Shown: in pieces, positions 10,501 to 41,968 of the stretch
Position numbering within the stretch: position 1 is the first letter of the stretch
Layout of the letters: the number at the start of each line of letters is the position of its first letter
Assembly: GCF_900128995.1 (NCBI RefSeq)
Contig: NZ_FQUE01000001.1
Span: 496,001 to 560,000 of the forward strand
Reading direction: 5' to 3'
Length of the DNA stretch: 64,000 nt
DNA from: Loktanella atrilutea
GTDB taxonomy: Bacteria; Pseudomonadota; Alphaproteobacteria; Rhodobacterales; Rhodobacteraceae
Notes under the pieces: model-generated
What the model was told of the DNA's origin: nothing
Database searches by the model: none
What the model saw: only the letters and a program-made list of their open reading frames with translations
Program-made: the position numbers and the translations under genes

Positions 10501-10511
<11 letters not shown>
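9480..10511 (-). CDS. Peptide ABC transporter ATP-binding protein, DppF/OppF type
   Basis: 343 residues. Walker A GESGCGKS, signature FSGGQRQR and Walker [13 protein letters not shown] are intact. The C-terminal oligopeptide-transport extension has its cysteine cluster ([14 protein letters not shown]). The start at 10511 overlaps the end of the preceding ATPase gene by 11 bases, which argues against the upstream start at 10559. Together with the DppD-type protein it forms the heterodimeric ATPase pair. The gene ends 25 bases before the binding-protein start. Confidence 0.95.
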
Positions 10512-11517
<1,006 letters not shown>

Positions 11518-11807
11518 AAGCGAACCTCCCCGGTTCATTTTTCGGCAGGCCACCTGCAGTGACCGTCTTATTTTTAAGCGGGCGCCTGTCTTTGATGCAG
11601 GTCGGCTGAGGCCAGACGGTAACATCGTTTTCGAGGCCCGCAAGAGCAAAGGTTCGTGGGTTGCGGCAGTGCAGCGTCGCGGGACCGGATGCCGCAAAAA
11701 GAGGCAGGGCGCGCGGTCCGCATGCGCTTTCTGCCCGCCGGTCGCTTGACCTTTCCCCTTTCGCGCGCAGGGTGGGCGCACCCAGACCCCCTGACCGGAG
11801 AGAACCG

Positions 11808-24963: not shown

Positions 24964-25496
24964 GGCTGGCGGAGGTCGAAACCGCCATCGCCGCCGCCCT
25001 GTCGGAGATCGGCCAGAGCGCAGCGCCCTACCGGATCGACCGCCAGCCCCGCGGCGACGGCACGCCCCATGTGGAGGGCGAGGGACCGTTCTTTGAACTC
25101 GTCGTGGACGACGACGGGATGGAGCGGACCCGCGAGACGGTGGACGGTCACGAGCTGCTGTACCGGATGCTGCGGCGCGAGACACGGTTGCTGGCGATGG
25201 CCGCGGAACGGCGGACGCGGACGGTGCAGGCGCCCGGCTGGGTCATGCGGCTGCGCCGGTGGTGGCCGGGGGCGCTGGAGGGGCTGGTCGGCACCGACGA
25301 CTATTCCCGCGCCACATGGATGGAGGCGCATGCGCACCTGATGACGCGCCTGCGCAGCGACTGGGGCGCCCGGGTGAAGACCGAGAACGACGCGATGCTG
25401 CGGCGCTATCCCCTGACCACGGCGGAGCGGGAGAATTTCCGCAGGCTGGATCTGGCGGCGTTCGGGATCACGGACGGGCGGTCGGCGCCGCGGTGA
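24960..25496 (+). CDS. Imm63-like protein coupled to the aminotransferase
   Basis: 178 residues, no signal peptide or membrane segment. The pattern GDGTPHVE...ELVVDDDGMER.RET.DGHELLYRML...MEAHAHLMTRLRSDWGAR...MLRRYP resembles the Imm63 immunity-protein family, known from polymorphic-toxin loci. This is recognition by eye and needs a profile search. The ATGA overlap couples it to the DegT-type aminotransferase; no toxin is visible nearby, so an orphan or re-purposed member is likely. A GAGGTATTT-type element follows. Confidence 0.6.
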   Translation: MRLAEVETAIAAALSEIGQSAAPYRIDRQPRGDGTPHVEGEGPFFELVVDDDGMERTRETVDGHELLYRMLRRETRLLAMAAERRTRTVQAPGWVMRLRRWWPGALEGLVGTDDYSRATWMEAHAHLMTRLRSDWGARVKTENDAMLRRYPLTTAERENFRRLDLAAFGITDGRSAPR

Positions 25497-35080: not shown

Positions 35081-36307
35081 ATGCTGCGACGCCTTTACCA
35101 CGATCAGCCCGAAAGCTTTGAATTCACGCCGGACAATCTGGCCTGGGCCAAGGGGCAGATGACGAAGTTCCCGGAGGGGCGTCAGGCCTCTGCCGTGATC
35201 CCGCTGCTGTGGCGCGCGCAGGAACAGCATGGCTGGCTGACCCGGCCGGCGATCGAGCATGTCGCCCGGATGCTGGACATGGAATACATCCGCGTGCTGG
35301 AGGTGGCGACCTTCTACTTCATGTTCCAGCTGCAACCGGTTGGCAGCGTTGCACATATTCAGGTCTGCGGCACCCTGTCCTGCATGATCTGTGGGGCAGA
35401 GGACCTGATCGGCGTCTGCAAGGACAAGATCGCGCCGAAGGCGCATCAGCTGTCCGCCGACGGCAAGTTTTCCTGGGAGGAGGTCGAATGCCTCGGGTCA
35501 TGCGCGAACGCGCCGATGGCGCAGATCGGCAAGGATTACTACGAGGATCTGACCGCCGCGCGGCTGGGCGAGATCATCGACGAGATGGCGGCGGGGCAGG
35601 TTCCCGTGCCGGGCCCGCAGAACGGTCGCTATGCGGCAGAGCCGCTGTCCGGACTGACCAGCCTGAAGGACCACGAGAGCGGCAAGCGGCAATACAATGC
35701 CAGCGCGCAGCTTGCGGTCGATATCGGCGACACCATCAAGCGGATCGATGGGACAGAGGTCCCGTTGCTGACGCCGTGGAACGCGGCCAAGCAGGCCGAC
35801 CCCGATCCGAAGGCCGCGGCGCGCGACGATCAGATGGCGCCCGAAGGCCCGGACGGTCGGCAGGGCGGTCGCGTGGCAGGCGACGAAGCGGCCCCGCGCG
35901 ATCAGGGCGACGCCTCTGACGGGGTGGCCGAGGTCGAGGGCGAGGCCAACGGTGAAACCCGTGCCGGCCGCCCTGACGAAGGCAGCGTGGCGCCGGAGCC
36001 GGAGACCGACGTGAAGGCCGAGAGCGGCACTAGGACACCGGGTCTGCAGACGGGTGAGGCGCCCGCGACCGCGGACCATGCGCCGGAGCGGCTGGATGCG
36101 GCGCGCGACGGTCAGGCGGACAATCTGAAGCGGATCAACGGCATCGGGCCGAAGATCGAGGCCGCCCTGAACGATCTGGGCATCTATCACTTCAGCCAGA
36201 TTGCCGCGTGGTCCGACGCCGACGCCGCATGGGTCGAAGGCCAGCTGAAGTCCAGAGGCCGGGTTGCCCGCGAAGACTGGATCGGTCAGGCCAAGACGCT
36301 GGCCTGA
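35081..36307 (+). CDS. nuoE: NADH-quinone oxidoreductase subunit E with long C-terminal extension
   Basis: 408 residues, against about 165-240 for the usual 24-kDa subunit. Residues 1-165 are the thioredoxin-like [2Fe-2S] domain with ligands Cys96, Cys101, Cys137 and Cys141. Residues about 220-335 are a low-complexity acidic/Gly/Ala linker. Residues 345-408 form a helix-hairpin-helix-like domain ([29 protein letters not shown]...[16 protein letters not shown]). I recall a similar tail on some alphaproteobacterial bL21 proteins. A terminator follows; nuoF is not next. Confidence 0.93.
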
Positions 36308-36338
36308 GGCCGACAAGACCTTGCAGGCACACTGACGA

Positions 36339-36360
36339 CCCGCGACCGTGCGGTCGCGGG
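36339..36360. terminator. Bidirectional terminator hairpin after nuoE and fliG
   Basis: Stem CCCGCGACC (36339-36347) against GGTCGCGGG (36352-36360), loop GTGC. It sits 31 bases after nuoE and six before the fliG stop on the opposite strand. Marks the end of the nuo transcript in this window. Confidence 0.75.
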
Positions 36361-36365
36361 ATTGA

Positions 36366-37424
36366 TCAGGTTTCTTCCTCCTCGTCCGGGTCGATCAGGG
36401 TGATCGTGCCGTCGTCCGCCAGCGCGCGGATGGCAGAGCTGACGGCGTTCATCGCAGCCTCGCCGTCCACGGGCTTGACGGTGCCGCGGTCGGCAGCCTG
36501 TTCCTTCAACGCGGCGGCCATGCGTTGCGAAATGCAGTCCATGATGTAGGTCGCCGCCGCCTCACGCTCCCCCCCCGCGACGAGGGCGTAGCCGATCGCG
36601 GTCGCGAGGTCCGCGGGATCGATGGCGCGCAGGCAGTTCGGGATGTGAATCGGACGCACGCGGGCGGGGATGTTTTCGAAGGTGAAGATCGCCTTGCGCA
36701 CATTTTTGGCGAAGTCCGCGTCGGTTTCGTCCAGCCCGACGAGGACATCGTCGCGGGTCGGGGCCAGGCTGGAATTGAGGATCGCGCCGACACGTTCGAC
36801 CGGAGCCTTGTCGAAGGCGGTCAGACGGGTGCGGCAGTAGTCGCTGACCAGCGCCTGACCGATGCGCAGCACGGCATCCGGGCCGATGTCGGAGGTCTGG
36901 CGCACGGCAAAGGTGATGCGCCGGGCGCGGGGGCCGGGGATCTTGCCCAGCACCTCTGCCGCGCGGGTGACGGGCAGTTTCGACAGCAGCACGGCGCCGA
37001 TCTGGATGCTTTCGGTGGACAGGATGCGCACGACGTCGTCGGTGGTCAGGTTCTGCAGCCGCGGCCAGGGGTCGCGGCCGTGGCGATTGTCGAGCTGGTC
37101 GCGCAGCTTGTCCGCCAGATGCGGCGAGATCTGACCGGCCAGTGCTTCGAGCGCCGCATCGACGTTGCCGGGGGCGCAGAGGCCGACGGCATCCAGCAGG
37201 TCGGCGAATTCCGTGGCGACGGCATTCACCGTATCGCGGTCGACGAGGCGGATCGCGCCCAGTTCGCGGGCCAGATCCTCTTGCACATGGTCAGGCATGG
37301 TGGACAGGGCAAGCTTGTTCCCGTCGTTGATCAGCAGTTGCACGATCAGGGCTGCCTTGCGCTTGCGCGACAGGGGCAGGGTCGGGGGCGCCGCGTCGGG
37401 CAGGGGATCGAAAGCGTTGAACAT
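36366..37424 (-). CDS. fliG: Flagellar motor switch protein FliG
   Basis: 352 residues. Rotor/switch protein of the flagellar C-ring. Weak but continuous FliG similarity: LSRKRKAALIVQLLINDGNKLALSTMPDHVQEDLARELGAI (N-domain), VLLSKLPVTRAAEVLGKIPGPRARRITFAVRQT (middle) and the C-domain with RKAIFTFENIPARV and DPADLATAIGYALVAGG. The acidic tail DEEEET is unusual. No other flagellar gene is in the window. It lies 45 bases downstream of the truncated LuxR-like gene, on the same strand and with no terminator between, so the two are probably one transcript. Confidence 0.9.
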   Translation of the reverse strand: MFNAFDPLPDAAPPTLPLSRKRKAALIVQLLINDGNKLALSTMPDHVQEDLARELGAIRLVDRDTVNAVATEFADLLDAVGLCAPGNVDAALEALAGQISPHLADKLRDQLDNRHGRDPWPRLQNLTTDDVVRILSTESIQIGAVLLSKLPVTRAAEVLGKIPGPRARRITFAVRQTSDIGPDAVLRIGQALVSDYCRTRLTAFDKAPVERVGAILNSSLAPTRDDVLVGLDETDADFAKNVRKAIFTFENIPARVRPIHIPNCLRAIDPADLATAIGYALVAGGEREAAATYIMDCISQRMAAALKEQAADRGTVKPVDGEAAMNAVSSAIRALADDGTITLIDPDEEEET

Positions 37425-37469
37425 GCAGCCGACCCTAGCCCGCGTTGGTCAAGGAACGGTGAACGGCGG

Positions 37470-37952
37470 TCAGCCCTTGGCGTAGTTGACCGACATTTTC
37501 CGCAACTCCTCGACACTCGTCGGGGACAGGTCCGACACGTTGCGGGTCGCTTCGTGCAGATCGGTCAGGACGTCTAGGAGGGCCGCCATTTCCTCTTGGG
37601 TGAATTCGCGGTCGGCGCGCGAAAAGCTGCCGAAGCTGCGGCTGTCGTGGGATTCGACTGCGCAGACCATGCCGAAGTTCAGACCGTGTTCGGCGGCGCG
37701 GACCATCACGCGTGCCGGATCGTCCGTCAGGTCGGACCAGCGGCATGCGCCTTCGTGGGTAAAGCCCCAGGCGACGGTCGGGTCCGACATCACCAGCGCG
37801 TGCAGGGAATAATACGATGTCCACGCCTTGGGATAGGCCTGCAGCAGGAATGTCGGAGAGGCGTAACGGATGTGAAATGCCAGGGCGTATCCGGCGGGTG
37901 CCACGGCTGCTGCATCCTGCAGGCGAGTCATCGATGGCATGGAATCTGGCAT
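37470..37952 (-). CDS. LuxR-type autoinducer-binding domain protein lacking the HTH
   Basis: 160 residues from the ATG at 37952 (AAGG eight bases upstream; a TTG at 37979 is an alternative). It aligns with the LuxR ligand-binding domain: Trp44, Tyr48, Asp57-Pro58 and Trp72 keep the family spacing (W-x3-Y-x8-DP). SFGSFSRADREFT closely matches SFASFCRADREFT in the divergent full-length LuxR, so they are paralogues. It stops before any GerE-type helix-turn-helix, and the 45 bases to fliG have no room for a lost HTH, so it is not a recent frameshift. Possible ligand sponge or dimerisation inhibitor. Confidence 0.85.
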   Translation of the reverse strand: MPDSMPSMTRLQDAAAVAPAGYALAFHIRYASPTFLLQAYPKAWTSYYSLHALVMSDPTVAWGFTHEGACRWSDLTDDPARVMVRAAEHGLNFGMVCAVESHDSRSFGSFSRADREFTQEEMAALLDVLTDLHEATRNVSDLSPTSVEELRKMSVNYAKG

Positions 37953-38006
37953 TACAAGGGCCTTGTCATTAACAGTCAAACACGTCGATTATTGGATATT
38001 AATTGG

Positions 38007-38048
38007 TATTCACTGGTGAATAACCTTCTTACTGTCCTTAAGTATAAA
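38007..38048 (+). promoter_or_regulatory. luxR promoter with lux-box-like palindrome
   Basis: Palindrome TATTCACTGGTGAATA (38007-38022) and a TATAAA -10 candidate (38043-38048) that places the palindrome over the -35, about -42 from the expected transcript start, the classic lux-box position. The divergent gap is clearly A/T-richer than its surroundings. A second, odd palindrome (ACAAGG-G-CCTTGT, 37954-37966) covers the ribosome-binding site of the divergent truncated gene. Functional assignment is inferred. Confidence 0.5.
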
Positions 38049-38082
38049 CATGCAGTGGTAACGACAGGATTCAACCCCCGGT

Positions 38083-38691
38083 ATGACGCGACGAATGACA
38101 CCGCAGGACCTGGAGACGGTTTCGCCTGCGGGCCACTACATCGCCCTGCGTATCGGTTTTGCGTTTCCGATGAAGGAAATCAATGCGCTGCCGACCCCTT
38201 GGGTGGAGCACTATACCCGCAACAGCCTGATGCTGTTCGACCCCATCATGCGGTGGGCCCATACCAACACCGGCATGGCGGCGTGGTCGTCCCTGCGTGA
38301 CGATGACCGCCGCGGCGTTCTGGGGATGGCGGCGGCCTTCGGCCTGCGATTCGGGCTGGTGGCGGCGGTGTTCGACGGCAACGCCGATGGTCAGCGGTCC
38401 TTTGCCAGTTTCTGCCGGGCGGACCGGGAGTTCACGGCGCTGGAGTCGCAGCTGCTGCTGGCCTACCTGACACGCTGCCACGACGAGATGCTGCCGCCCA
38501 AGACCCTGACCGGGGCGGAGCTGGAGGCCTTGGCCATGGTCAACGACGGCAAGCGGCTGAAGCAGATCGCCTTTGATCTGGGCGTCACCGAAGGCGCGGT
38601 GAAGCAGCGGCTGAAGAACGCCAAGACCAAGCTGCGGGCCAAGACCAGCACCGAGGCCGCGGCGCTGGCACGGCAGTTTCAACTGATCTGA
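38083..38691 (+). CDS. luxR: LuxR-family quorum-sensing regulator
   Basis: 202 residues. The N-terminal autoinducer-binding domain has Trp40, Tyr44, Asp53-Pro54 and Trp68 in LuxR spacing, and the C-terminal GerE-type HTH is LTGAELEALAMVNDGKRLKQIAFDLGVTEGAVKQRLKNAKTKLRAK. It is shorter than LuxR/TraR (about 230-250) because the N-terminus is compact. No strong Shine-Dalgarno is visible. The 141-base gap to luxI and same orientation make it the cognate regulator; the divergent paralogue lacks the HTH. Confidence 0.92.
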   Translation: MTRRMTPQDLETVSPAGHYIALRIGFAFPMKEINALPTPWVEHYTRNSLMLFDPIMRWAHTNTGMAAWSSLRDDDRRGVLGMAAAFGLRFGLVAAVFDGNADGQRSFASFCRADREFTALESQLLLAYLTRCHDEMLPPKTLTGAELEALAMVNDGKRLKQIAFDLGVTEGAVKQRLKNAKTKLRAKTSTEAAALARQFQLI

Positions 38692-38760
38692 GAATCGCAA
38701 AGGACGGCAAATCTGTCCGATGTCGCGGCTTTGGCTGCGGCACAGCGACCCTGTTGCGCC

Positions 38761-38784
38761 ATTGTCAATAGGAAATGAGACAAT
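38761..38784. promoter_or_regulatory. Inverted repeat upstream of luxI
   Basis: ATTGTC (38761-38766) and GACAAT (38779-38784) separated by 12 bases, about 50 bases before the luxI start in an A/T-rich stretch. It differs from the palindrome upstream of luxR. A regulator site is possible, but no good -35/-10 pair could be fixed around it. Confidence 0.35.
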
Positions 38785-38832
38785 TTGTAGATGTTTTGAT
38801 ACATAGGGATTCTTCCAGTAGGAGAACCCAGA

Positions 38833-39483
38833 ATGGAAAACATCACGTTCAACATGCGCGATTTGCACGTCCATGGTACTGCTTTCTATGACTTTTTACG
38901 GCTCCGGAAGCGATTCTTCGTGGACACGCTGGGGTGGCATATCCCCCATGACGACGATGTCGAGATGGACCAGTACGACAACCCGAAGGCGTGGTATTCC
39001 GTCGTCCTGCGCGACGGCGAGGTCATCGGCGGGGCCCGTGCCATGGCCACGACGGCGACATGGGGCAGTCACAGCTACATGCTGCGCGACGCGGTGCAGG
39101 GCAAGCTGATCGACATTCCCGCAGAGGTGCTGGCGCAGGACATCGTCAGCCCCGACATGTGGGAATGCACCCGGCTTGTCATCTCTGACGCGGTGGACAC
39201 GCAGGCGGCCCGCAGCACCTGTCTGACCATGATCGTGCAGGGGCTGATCGACGTGGCGGCGGATCAGGGGGCGACCACCCTGATGTCCCTGTCGCCGCTG
39301 GCCCTGATGCGCGCGCTGCGTCAGCTGGGCTTCGGGGCAGAGCGAATCGGCGAACCCTATGTCAACGACAACGACGGTCGCCGCTATGCGGTCCTGTCGA
39401 TGCCCACGACCCGGATCATGCCGCCGCTGCCGCGCGCGACCCATCGCGTGCAGCCGCAGCCCGTCCACGCGCCGTCTGTCTGA
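38833..39483 (+). CDS. luxI: Acyl-homoserine-lactone synthase (LuxI family)
   Basis: 216 residues. Makes an AHL from SAM and an acyl-ACP (or acyl-CoA). All eight LuxI-invariant positions are visible: Arg25, Phe29, Trp35, Asp46, Asp49, Arg69 (GGARAM), Glu111 and Arg114 (WECTRLV). The late region TLMSLSPLALMRALRQLGFGAERIG contributes to acyl-chain choice. AGGAG lies eight bases before the ATG. The acyl chain cannot be read from sequence. A hairpin terminator follows. Confidence 0.96.
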   Translation: MENITFNMRDLHVHGTAFYDFLRLRKRFFVDTLGWHIPHDDDVEMDQYDNPKAWYSVVLRDGEVIGGARAMATTATWGSHSYMLRDAVQGKLIDIPAEVLAQDIVSPDMWECTRLVISDAVDTQAARSTCLTMIVQGLIDVAADQGATTLMSLSPLALMRALRQLGFGAERIGEPYVNDNDGRRYAVLSMPTTRIMPPLPRATHRVQPQPVHAPSV

Positions 39484-39499
39484 CTTTGCCGGGGGCAGG

Positions 39500-39522
39500 A
39501 AGGCGGGCAGACTGCCCGCCTT
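39500..39522. terminator. Terminator hairpin after luxI
   Basis: Arms AAGGCGGGCA (39500-39509) and TGCCCGCCTT (39513-39522), loop GAC, then T. It lies 16 bases after luxI and eight before the stop of the small minus-strand gene; probably serves both. Confidence 0.8.
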
Positions 39523-39529
39523 TCACCCG

Positions 39530-39688
39530 TCAGCTTGTGGTTACGGGCACGCAGGTGCCTGTTTCCGCATCGGGGATCATGCCATCGGCGCAGGACATCG
39601 CCGTCGTCTTGGCATGGTTGCATCCCTGCGCCAGCGCGAGGCCGGGCAGCAGGGCCAGTGCCAGTGCCGCAAGAGAGGTCTTCATCAT
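39530..39688 (-). CDS. 52-residue secreted cysteine-containing peptide
   Basis: Short gene on the minus strand: AGGAG six bases before tandem ATGs, a clean signal peptide (about MMKTSLAALALALLPGLALAQ), then a mature peptide of roughly 31 residues with three cysteines (GCNHAK, MSCADG, GTCVPV) and a TGA stop. Codon use is like the neighbours. I recall similar small secreted proteins beside purB in related bacteria. It lies 92 bases upstream of nothing else on its strand and 93 bases beyond the purB stop, so it may share the purB transcript. Function unknown. Confidence 0.75.
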   Translation of the reverse strand: MMKTSLAALALALLPGLALAQGCNHAKTTAMSCADGMIPDAETGTCVPVTTS

Positions 39689-39780
39689 CGCAAACTCCTG
39701 TCATCAACCAAGGTGGCGTCATCATAGCATGACGCAGGGTCAATCACCGACAGGTTTTATCTGCGACAGGGTGTCCCGCG

Positions 39781-41088
39781 TCAGCCTTGCCCGAACACCC
39801 GCGCAAAGATCGTGTCCACATGCTTGGTGTGGTAGCCGATGTCGAACTTTTCCTCGATCTGCGCGGGCGTCAGGGCGGCTGTGACCTCGGGGTCGGCCAG
39901 CAGCTCTGTCTTGAAGTCGGCGCCCTGTTCCCAGACCTTCATCGCGTTGCGCTGCACGAGGCGGTAGCTGTCCTCTCGGCTGACGCCGGCCTGCGTCAGC
40001 GCCAGCAGGACGCGCTGCGACATCACGAGGCCGCGGAACTTGTTCATGTTGGCCAGCATGTTGTCGGGATAGATCACCAGCTTTTCGACCAGACCGGCAA
40101 GGCGGTTCAGGGCGAAGTCGAGGGTGATCGTGGTGTCGGGGCCGATCGCGCGTTCGACGGAGGAATGGCTGATGTCGCGCTCGTGCCAGAGGGTCACGTT
40201 TTCCAGCGCCGGCGTCACGGACATGCGGACGAGGCGGGCGAGGCCGGTCAGGTTTTCCGACAGCACCGGGTTGCGCTTGTGCGGCATGGCGGAGGAGCCC
40301 TTCTGGCCGGGGGAGAAGAACTCCTCTGCCTCCAGCACCTCTGTGCGCTGCATGTGGCGAATCTCTGTCGCGATGTTTTCCATCGAGGAGGCGATGACGC
40401 CCAGCGTGGCGAAGAACATGGCGTGGCGGTCGCGGGGGATGACCTGCGTGCTGATCGGTTCCGGCGTCAGGCCAAGCTGCTTGCAGACGTGCTCCTCGAC
40501 CGCGGGGTCGATGTTGGCAAAGGTGCCGACGGCGCCGGAGATGGCGCCTGTGGCGATCTCTGCCCGGGCGTTGACCAGACGGGCGCGGCCGCGATCCATC
40601 TCGGCGTAGAAGCGGGCGAAGGTCAGGCCCATCGTCGTGGGTTCGGCGTGGATGCCGTGGCTGCGGCCGATGCGGACGGTGTCCTTGTGTTCCATCGCGC
40701 GGGATTTTAGCGCCGCCAGCACGCGGTCCATGTCGGCCAGCAGGATGTCGGCGGCGCGGACCAGCTGGACGTTCAGCGTGGTGTCCAGCACATCCGAGGA
40801 GGTCATGCCCTGATGGACGAAACGCGCCTGATCGGACCCGATGTGTTCGGCCAGATGGGTGAGGAAGGCGATGACGTCATGCTTGGTCACGGCCTCGATC
40901 TCGTCGATGCGTGCCACGTCGAACTGCACGTCCTTTGCCTTCCAGACCGCCTGCGCGTTTTCCTTCGGGATCACGCCGAGGTCGGCCATGGCGTCGCAGG
41001 CGTGGGCCTCGATTTCGAACCAGATGCGGTATTTCGTGGCGGGGTCCCAGACGGCGGTCATTTCGGGGCGGGCATAGCGCGGGATCAT
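39781..41088 (-). CDS. purB: Adenylosuccinate lyase
   Basis: 435 residues. Acts twice in purine synthesis (SAICAR and adenylosuccinate cleavage). The signature loop GSSAMPHKRNPVLSENLTGLAR carries the catalytic serine, with TSSDVLDTTLNVQ and GRSHGIHAEPTTMGL giving active-site residues. The start at 41088 fits the family N-terminus (MIPRYARPEMTAVW); the frame stays open far upstream without homology. It is divergent from a LuxR-type gene and followed by the 52-residue peptide gene. Confidence 0.97.
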   Translation of the reverse strand: MIPRYARPEMTAVWDPATKYRIWFEIEAHACDAMADLGVIPKENAQAVWKAKDVQFDVARIDEIEAVTKHDVIAFLTHLAEHIGSDQARFVHQGMTSSDVLDTTLNVQLVRAADILLADMDRVLAALKSRAMEHKDTVRIGRSHGIHAEPTTMGLTFARFYAEMDRGRARLVNARAEIATGAISGAVGTFANIDPAVEEHVCKQLGLTPEPISTQVIPRDRHAMFFATLGVIASSMENIATEIRHMQRTEVLEAEEFFSPGQKGSSAMPHKRNPVLSENLTGLARLVRMSVTPALENVTLWHERDISHSSVERAIGPDTTITLDFALNRLAGLVEKLVIYPDNMLANMNKFRGLVMSQRVLLALTQAGVSREDSYRLVQRNAMKVWEQGADFKTELLADPEVTAALTPAQIEEKFDIGYHTKHVDTIFARVFGQG

Positions 41089-41212
41089 GGGCGGGCCTTT
41101 CGGGTTGGCGGCGGCGTTGGCTGCGTCATACTGGCAAGGCGCGGGAATGGAAAGTTTCGATCCCCCGCAAGGTCGCTTGACTCTCGTCGGCGGAATAAGG
41201 CCAAAATGTGGC

Positions 41213-41968
41213 ATGATACCGCGTAGCTTTTCCCAGTTGGACGTTCTGAGCCGGTTTGCCGTGGGCGCCCCGCCAGAGGAGATCTGGGCGCAGGCCACCC
41301 GCACCTTTGCCGATCTGGGCAGCCCGACGATGACGCTTGGCACCGCGCCCGTCGGTCGGCCCCACGCGCCGACGATCAGAAGCACGGCGTCCGACCGGCT
41401 GCTGGACGACTATGTCGCCGCCGGGCTGCACGCGGTCGATCCCTGGATGGAGATCTGCGCCGCGACCTGCGACGTCGGCATCATGGACTTCACCCAAGGC
41501 ACGCCGGCGCGGGACGGTGACGCAGGAACCGCGCAGGTGCGCGACCTGTTCCGGGATCACGGCTATGCGCAGACCATGCTGGTGCCCTGCGCCGGATCGG
41601 TGCAGACCGCGGGCGTCGTCCTGTATGCCGAGACGCGGGATGCCGCAGCGTCTTTGCGCCGGCCCGAGACCCTGCGGCTGCTGCAATTGGCGGCGACGGC
41701 CTTTGCGCTGAGCTACCGGCCCGGGCCGGGGGCGGAGGATGACGTGGAGATGCGCGTCATCCGCCCTGCGGCACCGCTGACCGCGCGTGAGATCGAGGTG
41801 CTGCAATGGCTGGCCGCCGGGCTGAAGACCGGGCAGATCGCGCACCGGATGGCGCTGCAGGACGTGACGGTGACGAAGCATCTGGCGAACGCCAGACGCA
41901 AGCTGGGCGCCCGCACGCGGGAACAGGCGCTGGTCATGGCGGTGATGGCCGGACTGCTTTCCCTGTAA
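41213..41968 (+). CDS. LuxR-type regulator, solo (no adjacent synthase)
   Basis: 251 residues. The N-terminal domain keeps Y-x8-DP (YVAAGLHAVDPWM), but the tryptophan of the LuxR signature is replaced by leucine, so the ligand site is degenerate. The C-terminal HTH is LTAREIEVLQWLAAGLKTGQIAHRMALQDVTVTKHLANARRKLGARTREQA. The start at 41213 matches where homology begins; an in-frame ATG at 41147 has a better ribosome site (AAGG) and would add 22 residues. Divergent from purB; a terminator follows. It may sense AHLs made by the nearby LuxI or another ligand. Confidence 0.88.
   Translation: MIPRSFSQLDVLSRFAVGAPPEEIWAQATRTFADLGSPTMTLGTAPVGRPHAPTIRSTASDRLLDDYVAAGLHAVDPWMEICAATCDVGIMDFTQGTPARDGDAGTAQVRDLFRDHGYAQTMLVPCAGSVQTAGVVLYAETRDAAASLRRPETLRLLQLAATAFALSYRPGPGAEDDVEMRVIRPAAPLTAREIEVLQWLAAGLKTGQIAHRMALQDVTVTKHLANARRKLGARTREQALVMAVMAGLLSL

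Follow-up and report, generated by a model that had tools for sequence, protein, structure and literature searches.

Gene organization of the locus

The locus described here places a set of quorum-sensing genes beside fliG in Loktanella atrilutea, in a 64,000-nucleotide stretch of contig NZ_FQUE01000001.1 (positions 496,001 to 560,000 of the forward strand; this whole stretch is called the window, and coordinates are counted within it). On the minus strand, fliG (36366-37424) encodes an 'orphan' FliG-like protein of 352 amino acids (aa), outside any flagellar cluster, with Pfam matches to FliG_N, FliG_M and FliG_C above cut-off. On the same strand, across a gap of 45 bases (37425-37469), lies abd (37470-37979, 169 aa), whose product is a CerN-like LuxR-type autoinducer-binding protein without a helix-turn-helix (HTH) domain; it matches Pfam Autoind_bind (8.5e-13) and has no GerE match. 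On the plus strand are luxR (38083-38691, 202 aa), a full-length LuxR-type regulator with both Autoind_bind and GerE, and luxI (38833-39483, 216 aa; Autoind_synth, 6.6e-14), which encodes an acyl-homoserine lactone (AHL) synthase.

The open reading frame calls and Pfam matches confirm the gene order and positions given by the original prediction, an earlier reading of the same DNA, and Pfam and alignment agree with it that the neighbour of fliG is a conserved LuxR relative with the signal-binding domain and without the DNA-binding domain. Its figure of 130 bases for the divergent gap is correct from an in-frame ATG at codon 10 of abd (37952), but with the TTG start called here the region between abd and luxR has 103 bases (37980-38082). 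Three features go beyond that earlier picture: a conserved element inside the 45-base gap; purB, which encodes adenylosuccinate lyase (39781-41118, minus strand; Pfam Lyase_1 and ADSL_C), lies beyond luxI and is an old neighbour of fliG; and an additional full-length LuxR-type gene (41087-41968, plus strand; Autoind_bind and GerE) whose start overlaps the start of purB. No convincing counterpart of this last gene was found beside purB in the 32 relatives' stretches compared.

Distribution of the quorum module

We compared 47 loci in which abd and luxR form a divergent pair: the window, four Loktanella loci found by their FliG, three second loci in Loktanella, and 39 of 40 loci from the family, the remaining one (L160) being excluded because its genes share one strand. 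The 40 family loci were chosen manually among the best abd matches listed, with proximity to luxR or fliG playing no part, and some dozen entries whose open frames measured about 200 aa or more, resembling full LuxRs, were passed over. fliG was counted only if it lay on abd's strand within the available stretch. On this basis luxI is present in 43 of the 47 loci, purB in 30 and fliG in 27, and no fliG was found on abd's strand in the other 20. Forty-two of the loci were recruited by an abd match (22 of these have fliG) and five, the window and the four Loktanella loci, by FliG.

Seen from the side of fliG, the gene has none of abd, luxR and luxI with it in 28 of the 32 stretches compared from relatives; purB is present in 21 of those 28, and in 18 it is at most about 1.1 kilobases from fliG. 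Within the genus, five of nine genomes carry abd and luxR between fliG and purB (one of them, G007, without luxI), and the other four have fliG without the module. L. salsilacus is among the species with the locus. Together with the 27 of 47 loci, the five genomes bear out the expectation that the gene order recurs in relatives. Three Loktanella genomes (G002, G005 and G008) carry a second abd/luxR pair elsewhere (L090, L091 and L092), and L091 and L092 have a cer-like order, abd / luxR luxR luxI.

The counts of luxI and fliG and the second pairs elsewhere suggest that abd belongs with luxR-luxI, and that fliG is a neighbour at one common site. Judged from sequence, the distribution points to HTH-less receptors as a regular component of one LuxR-LuxI type in the Rhodobacteraceae. 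Because purB also lies near fliG in most relatives that lack the module, the simplest account is that these two genes are neighbours of long standing and that the quorum module was inserted between them; the alternative would be that the module was lost in the other lineages. Within Loktanella the module does not track flagellation. Both the module and FlhA are present in G005 and G007, G001 and G003 have FlhA without the module, this genome (G000) and G002 have the module plus another flagellar set, G008 has the module with no FlhA found, and G004 and G006 have neither.

The window FliG and the flagellar sets

The original prediction treated the window's fliG as the motor switch gene, which the rest of the genome does not support. 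The only matches to FlhA, FliF and FliM lie on another contig (C40), within about 12 kilobases of a different FliG. The genes of that set (L001, L161) are at 25459 (FliG), 29437 (FliF), 30842 (FliM) and 34656 (FlhA), and G002 has a similar set on C51. In four other genomes of the genus, G001, G003, G005 and G007, FlhA and FliF are accompanied by a FliG of the window type only. The window FliG itself aligns with a solved FliG structure over most of its length, and it scores 83 bits against the NCBIfam equivalog TIGR00207, whose cut-off is 226.7.

Given the set on C40 with its other FliG and the four genomes with the window type only, the most likely history is that the window FliG worked with a flagellar set since lost or replaced in this strain, whose working motor gene is probably not the window fliG. 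FliM (PF02154) was also tried as a test of flagellum loss and was uninformative, since the four FlhA-positive genomes just named likewise have no match.

A CtrA-like element before fliG

A first motif search covered 28 loci without adjacent quorum genes and 26 quorum loci. In the 260 bases before fliG, the 28 loci gave the motif TTAAGCnnGCgTTaACC with a score of 149.7, compared with 58-62 in three shuffles, and this motif fits the published full CtrA site, TTAA-N7-TTAAC (PMC3692519). The 28 include L060-L064, which have a more distant FliG behind another gene. The motif was retrained as a position weight matrix on 22 non-quorum loci (L037-L058) and applied to 22 quorum loci outside the training set, with every FliG scoring above 405 bits. 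The mean best score in the quorum loci was 5.99 against -1.56 in 200 dinucleotide shuffles (standard deviation, sd, 0.63), and 6.16 against -1.65 with Loktanella left out. The score was positive in 20 of the 22 loci. The best site lies wholly between the end of abd and fliG in 18 of the 22; it overlaps the end of abd by about two bases in three loci and by more in L036. As controls, stretches 410-560 bases further up scored -1.09, and the divergent abd/luxR regions read on the luxR strand scored -1.53 against -1.04 in shuffles, which is no excess.

In the window the element is GTTCACCGTTCCTTGACC (37447-37464, minus strand), a probable promoter element of fliG inside the abd-fliG gap. It is one of two matches of at least 9.7 among 127,966 scored window positions; the other, at 11161 on the minus strand, lies inside a long open reading frame (10501-11781, minus strand) and was taken as chance. 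Between the element and fliG is CTAGGGT (37432-37438, minus strand), a possible -10-like element which was read by eye, carries no statistics and was not called by the sigma-70 scan. A similar GCTAGG is found in L045, L051 and L053.

Since a motif trained on relatives free of quorum genes occurs in the abd-fliG gap, these 45 bases probably hold an older CtrA-type promoter element belonging to fliG itself. The view of the original prediction that fliG is wired directly to the quorum promoter is for this reason weakly supported, and the four genus genomes with fliG and no module and the 20 abd/luxR loci with no fliG on abd's strand speak against it as well.

In the divergent abd/luxR region there is one sigma-70-like match on the plus strand, at 37963-37992. 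Two candidate LuxR sites were rejected there. A GtaR-type 22-mer reached p <= 0.05 in 6 of 46 regions and was judged not conserved, and a palindromic motif that beat shuffles was found to match mostly an asymmetric leader rather than a lux box; L091, mis-anchored and too short, was left out of both searches. The leader, [AG]GCAACC-N2-AAAGCGA(GT) with at most 3 mismatches, stands 10-36 bases upstream of abd in 12 of the 22 fliG-linked loci outside Loktanella (for example L130, L144 and L157) and is absent from the window.

The HTH-less receptor Abd

Six AHL-pocket residues of Abd, W53, Y57, D66, P67, W81 and G103, are invariant across 10 aligned sequences (matched by eye to the published six). 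The product stops at about the point where the HTH domain would be expected to start, its C-terminal tail is conserved in four of five Loktanella, and its length is similar in most of the best matches, across many genera. The ratio of nonsynonymous to synonymous substitution (dN/dS) is 0.12-0.19 for abd among the window, L033, L034 and L035, with several dS values above 1; in the same four Loktanella it is 0.06-0.15 for luxR and 0.06-0.12 for fliG. Compared with the copy of G007 (L036), whose locus is without luxI, abd is more diverged, with dN/dS of 0.32-0.46. By these substitution patterns abd appears to be a constrained, working gene under purifying selection.

abd is about 37% identical to its neighbouring LuxR. 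A tree built from 97 ligand-binding domains has a branch with 100/100 support that sets the 47 partner LuxRs, that of the window among them, apart from the abd rows, which share their side with three outgroup rows; many inner forks of this tree are unresolved and its bootstrap had not settled. The split fits one old separation and not repeated recent truncation. The abd rows of loci with the cer-like order (L091, L092 and L148) nest among the other abd rows, where the label refers to gene order. A predicted structure of Abd, built from four sequences, has a mean predicted local distance difference test score of 61, and its best Foldseek matches are AHL receptors (query template modelling scores about 0.35-0.57, root-mean-square deviation 5-11), which makes the model a coarse check only.

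Published counterparts

The original prediction took the unit to be undescribed, but the layout is already twice in print. Cude & Buchan (2013, PMC3824088) described as 'topology D' an arrangement in which fliG lies upstream of luxRI on the opposite strand and an adenylosuccinate lyase gene follows downstream; they reported variations of it in six subclade-4 genomes, called the link an avenue for study, and stated that no topology-D organism had been studied for quorum sensing at that time. Subramoni (2015, PMC4338825) listed Group 4 LuxR solos with the order fliG(C) - [hp(C) - abd(C)] - luxR - asl(C) in Rubellimicrobium and Loktanella, called their luxR a separate transcriptional unit, and noted that luxR/luxI of O. 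antarcticus is also flanked by fliG. The window locus has the same layout, with fliG on the opposite strand upstream of luxRI and adenylosuccinate lyase on the far side. The HTH-less gene is not mentioned in the passages that describe topology D, and the Group 4 entries are solos without luxI, whereas the window has luxI. These two papers were the only reports found in the literature of fliG, adenylosuccinate lyase and luxR in this layout, and the literature searched yielded no functional study of a fliG-abd-luxR-luxI locus.

By analogy, the nearest and best-studied counterpart of Abd/LuxR is CerN/CerM of Cereibacter sphaeroides. CerN has no HTH domain; in the presence of AHL it interacts with CerM, and it counteracts the indirect repression of ctrA by CerM (PMC11655674). 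The likeness lies in an HTH-less receptor with a WYDPWG pocket, beside a full LuxR near luxI, and Abd shares these traits: Autoind_bind without GerE, the six pocket residues and an adjacent full-length LuxR. The cer locus has cerR in addition, and the main text of that paper does not mention fliG. Another HTH-less LuxR relative, TrlR of Agrobacterium, blocks a full LuxR (PMC11655674, PMC4338825); TrlR is 88% identical to TraR, and Abd, at the much lower identity given above, is not such a near-identical copy of its LuxR.

AHL signals do affect motility in some roseobacters, as the original prediction assumed (PMC3824088, PMC3692519). In P. inhibens, mutants of the CtrA pathway show silencing of three orphan flagellar genes, for which names are not stated, and none of the quorum genes was essential for motility (PMC11974857/PMC12363192).

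Explanations for the locus

We favour, with moderate confidence, the explanation that the locus is a CerN/CerM-like AHL module between the old neighbours fliG and purB, with fliG keeping its own CtrA-type element. The AHL made by LuxI would be bound by Abd, and AHL-bound Abd would pair with LuxR, altering or removing its DNA binding and so setting LuxR's answer to the signal. By analogy with CerN, Abd is most likely an AHL-dependent partner of the adjacent LuxR. Any quorum effect on fliG would run mainly via CtrA, as reported for other Rhodobacterales, and read-through from abd into fliG would be at most an addition. Provided that the fliG genes concerned are orthologues of this one, the reduced fliG RNA of a Ruegeria KLH11 ctrA mutant (PMC3692519) and the loss of swimming after insertions in a fliG outside the flagellar cluster of P. 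inhibens (PMC11974857/PMC12363192) would speak for this route, as would the silenced orphan genes of P. inhibens. fliG would be the neighbour of the module and not its purpose.

Several observations weigh against this explanation. Of the 9 positions of the published CtrA consensus the window site matches 7, L036 and L143 have no good element and scores that are not positive, and the divergent regions read on the abd strand score slightly above shuffles (0.21 against -1.26, sd 0.61). A simple sigma-70 scan gave no promoter-like site on the minus strand, and hence none in the abd-fliG gap. No terminator-like site was detected in 36200-39900, including after abd; this absence says little, since shuffles average 2.1 such sites. 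CerN is likened to Abd by description and gene order rather than by its own sequence, and CerM has the change W57F where the window LuxR keeps W. From the literature, the KLH11 authors reported no highly similar CtrA sites upstream of their motility genes (PMC3692519).

The same missing terminator and sigma-70-like promoter would suit a single operon of abd and fliG, transcribed from the quorum promoter region, in which AHL directly sets the level of FliG. The two genes are on one strand 45 bases apart, and the fliG open frame, counted from stop to stop and not from the start codon, follows the abd frame after 3 bases in L126, L135, L153 and L154 and overlaps it in L136 and L149. We nevertheless regard an operon as unlikely, since the conserved CtrA-like element sits in the gap, abd and fliG are 157-430 bases apart in 8 of the 27 fliG-linked loci, most relatives have fliG without the module, many abd/luxR loci have no fliG on abd's strand, and the only FlhA/FliF set of this genome comes with another FliG.

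It is similarly improbable that Abd acts as a sink or buffer, which would delay the response by holding AHL with no contact to LuxR. Its intact pocket and missing HTH domain would fit such a role, and Subramoni (2015, PMC4338825) named the possibility, but across the 47 loci abd is consistently paired with a single type of LuxR, and this, with the precedent of direct interaction by CerN (PMC11655674), favours an Abd that works through its partner. That Abd is a decaying luxR copy without function, as the lack of the HTH domain and the diverged G007 copy might suggest, is very hard to believe in view of the low dN/dS among the other four Loktanella, the conserved tail and the similar length over many genera.

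Window-type FliG in genomes without FlhA

FlhA is matched in 310 of 394 family genomes, and a FliG of the window type (E <= 1e-36) occurs in 311. By a hand comparison of the FlhA and FliG match rows, 41 family genomes have the window-type FliG and no FlhA match, which with G004 and G006 makes 43; 41 of the 43 are also without FliF, and 35 reach a completeness of 90% or more with contamination no higher than 5%. The 20 FliGs read from these FlhA-less genomes, a sample biased to the better-scoring ones and excluding L177 (from G289, which has FliF), are all intact. Of the 62 columns that are conserved among 39 FliGs from FlhA-positive genomes they retain 97.4%, against 94.4% for those 39 themselves (leave-one-out), and at a looser threshold the values are 91.8% and 90.3%. 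Between G003, which is flagellated, and G004, which is not, dN/dS is 0.095 for fliG (dS 0.23) and 0.014 for purB (dS 0.21); fliG is thus under constraint, though purB is more so.

These results raise the idea that the orphan FliG has a second, non-flagellar role, in which case the quorum module would control that role and not motility. Its retention without FlhA and FliF, its equal conservation in the 20 proteins read, and its place beside an AHL module in Loktanella whose only flagellar set has another FliG all point this way. The flagellar losses may be recent, which counts against it, and we consider a second role distinctly doubtful.

A flagellin match was found in 19 of the 43 FlhA-less genomes, and in nine of these it is only a short match well inside a contig. 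In all nine (L182-L190), about the first 45 flagellin codons are fused tail to tail with a flgE that lacks about its last dozen codons, and the junction point is the same in each, near GTCTGG; in L186 flgE is additionally broken. In the intact comparison loci (L191-L194), the two junction points are 25,389 bases apart in G005 and 24,853 in G003, where they bracket the flagellar cluster, including FliF and FlhA. Independent losses of this cluster have been inferred before (PMC12363192), and no earlier report of the flgE/fliC junction was found in the literature searched. It may have arisen by site-specific excision, by microhomology or as a library artefact.

Significance

The retention of FliG without FlhA or FliF is a question separate from that of the quorum module. 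For the module itself, a gene layout that had been published and left unexplained can now be tied to a mechanism shown in 2024 for CerN/CerM, and the locus allows two routes from quorum sensing to fliG, a local one and one through CtrA, to be told apart directly.

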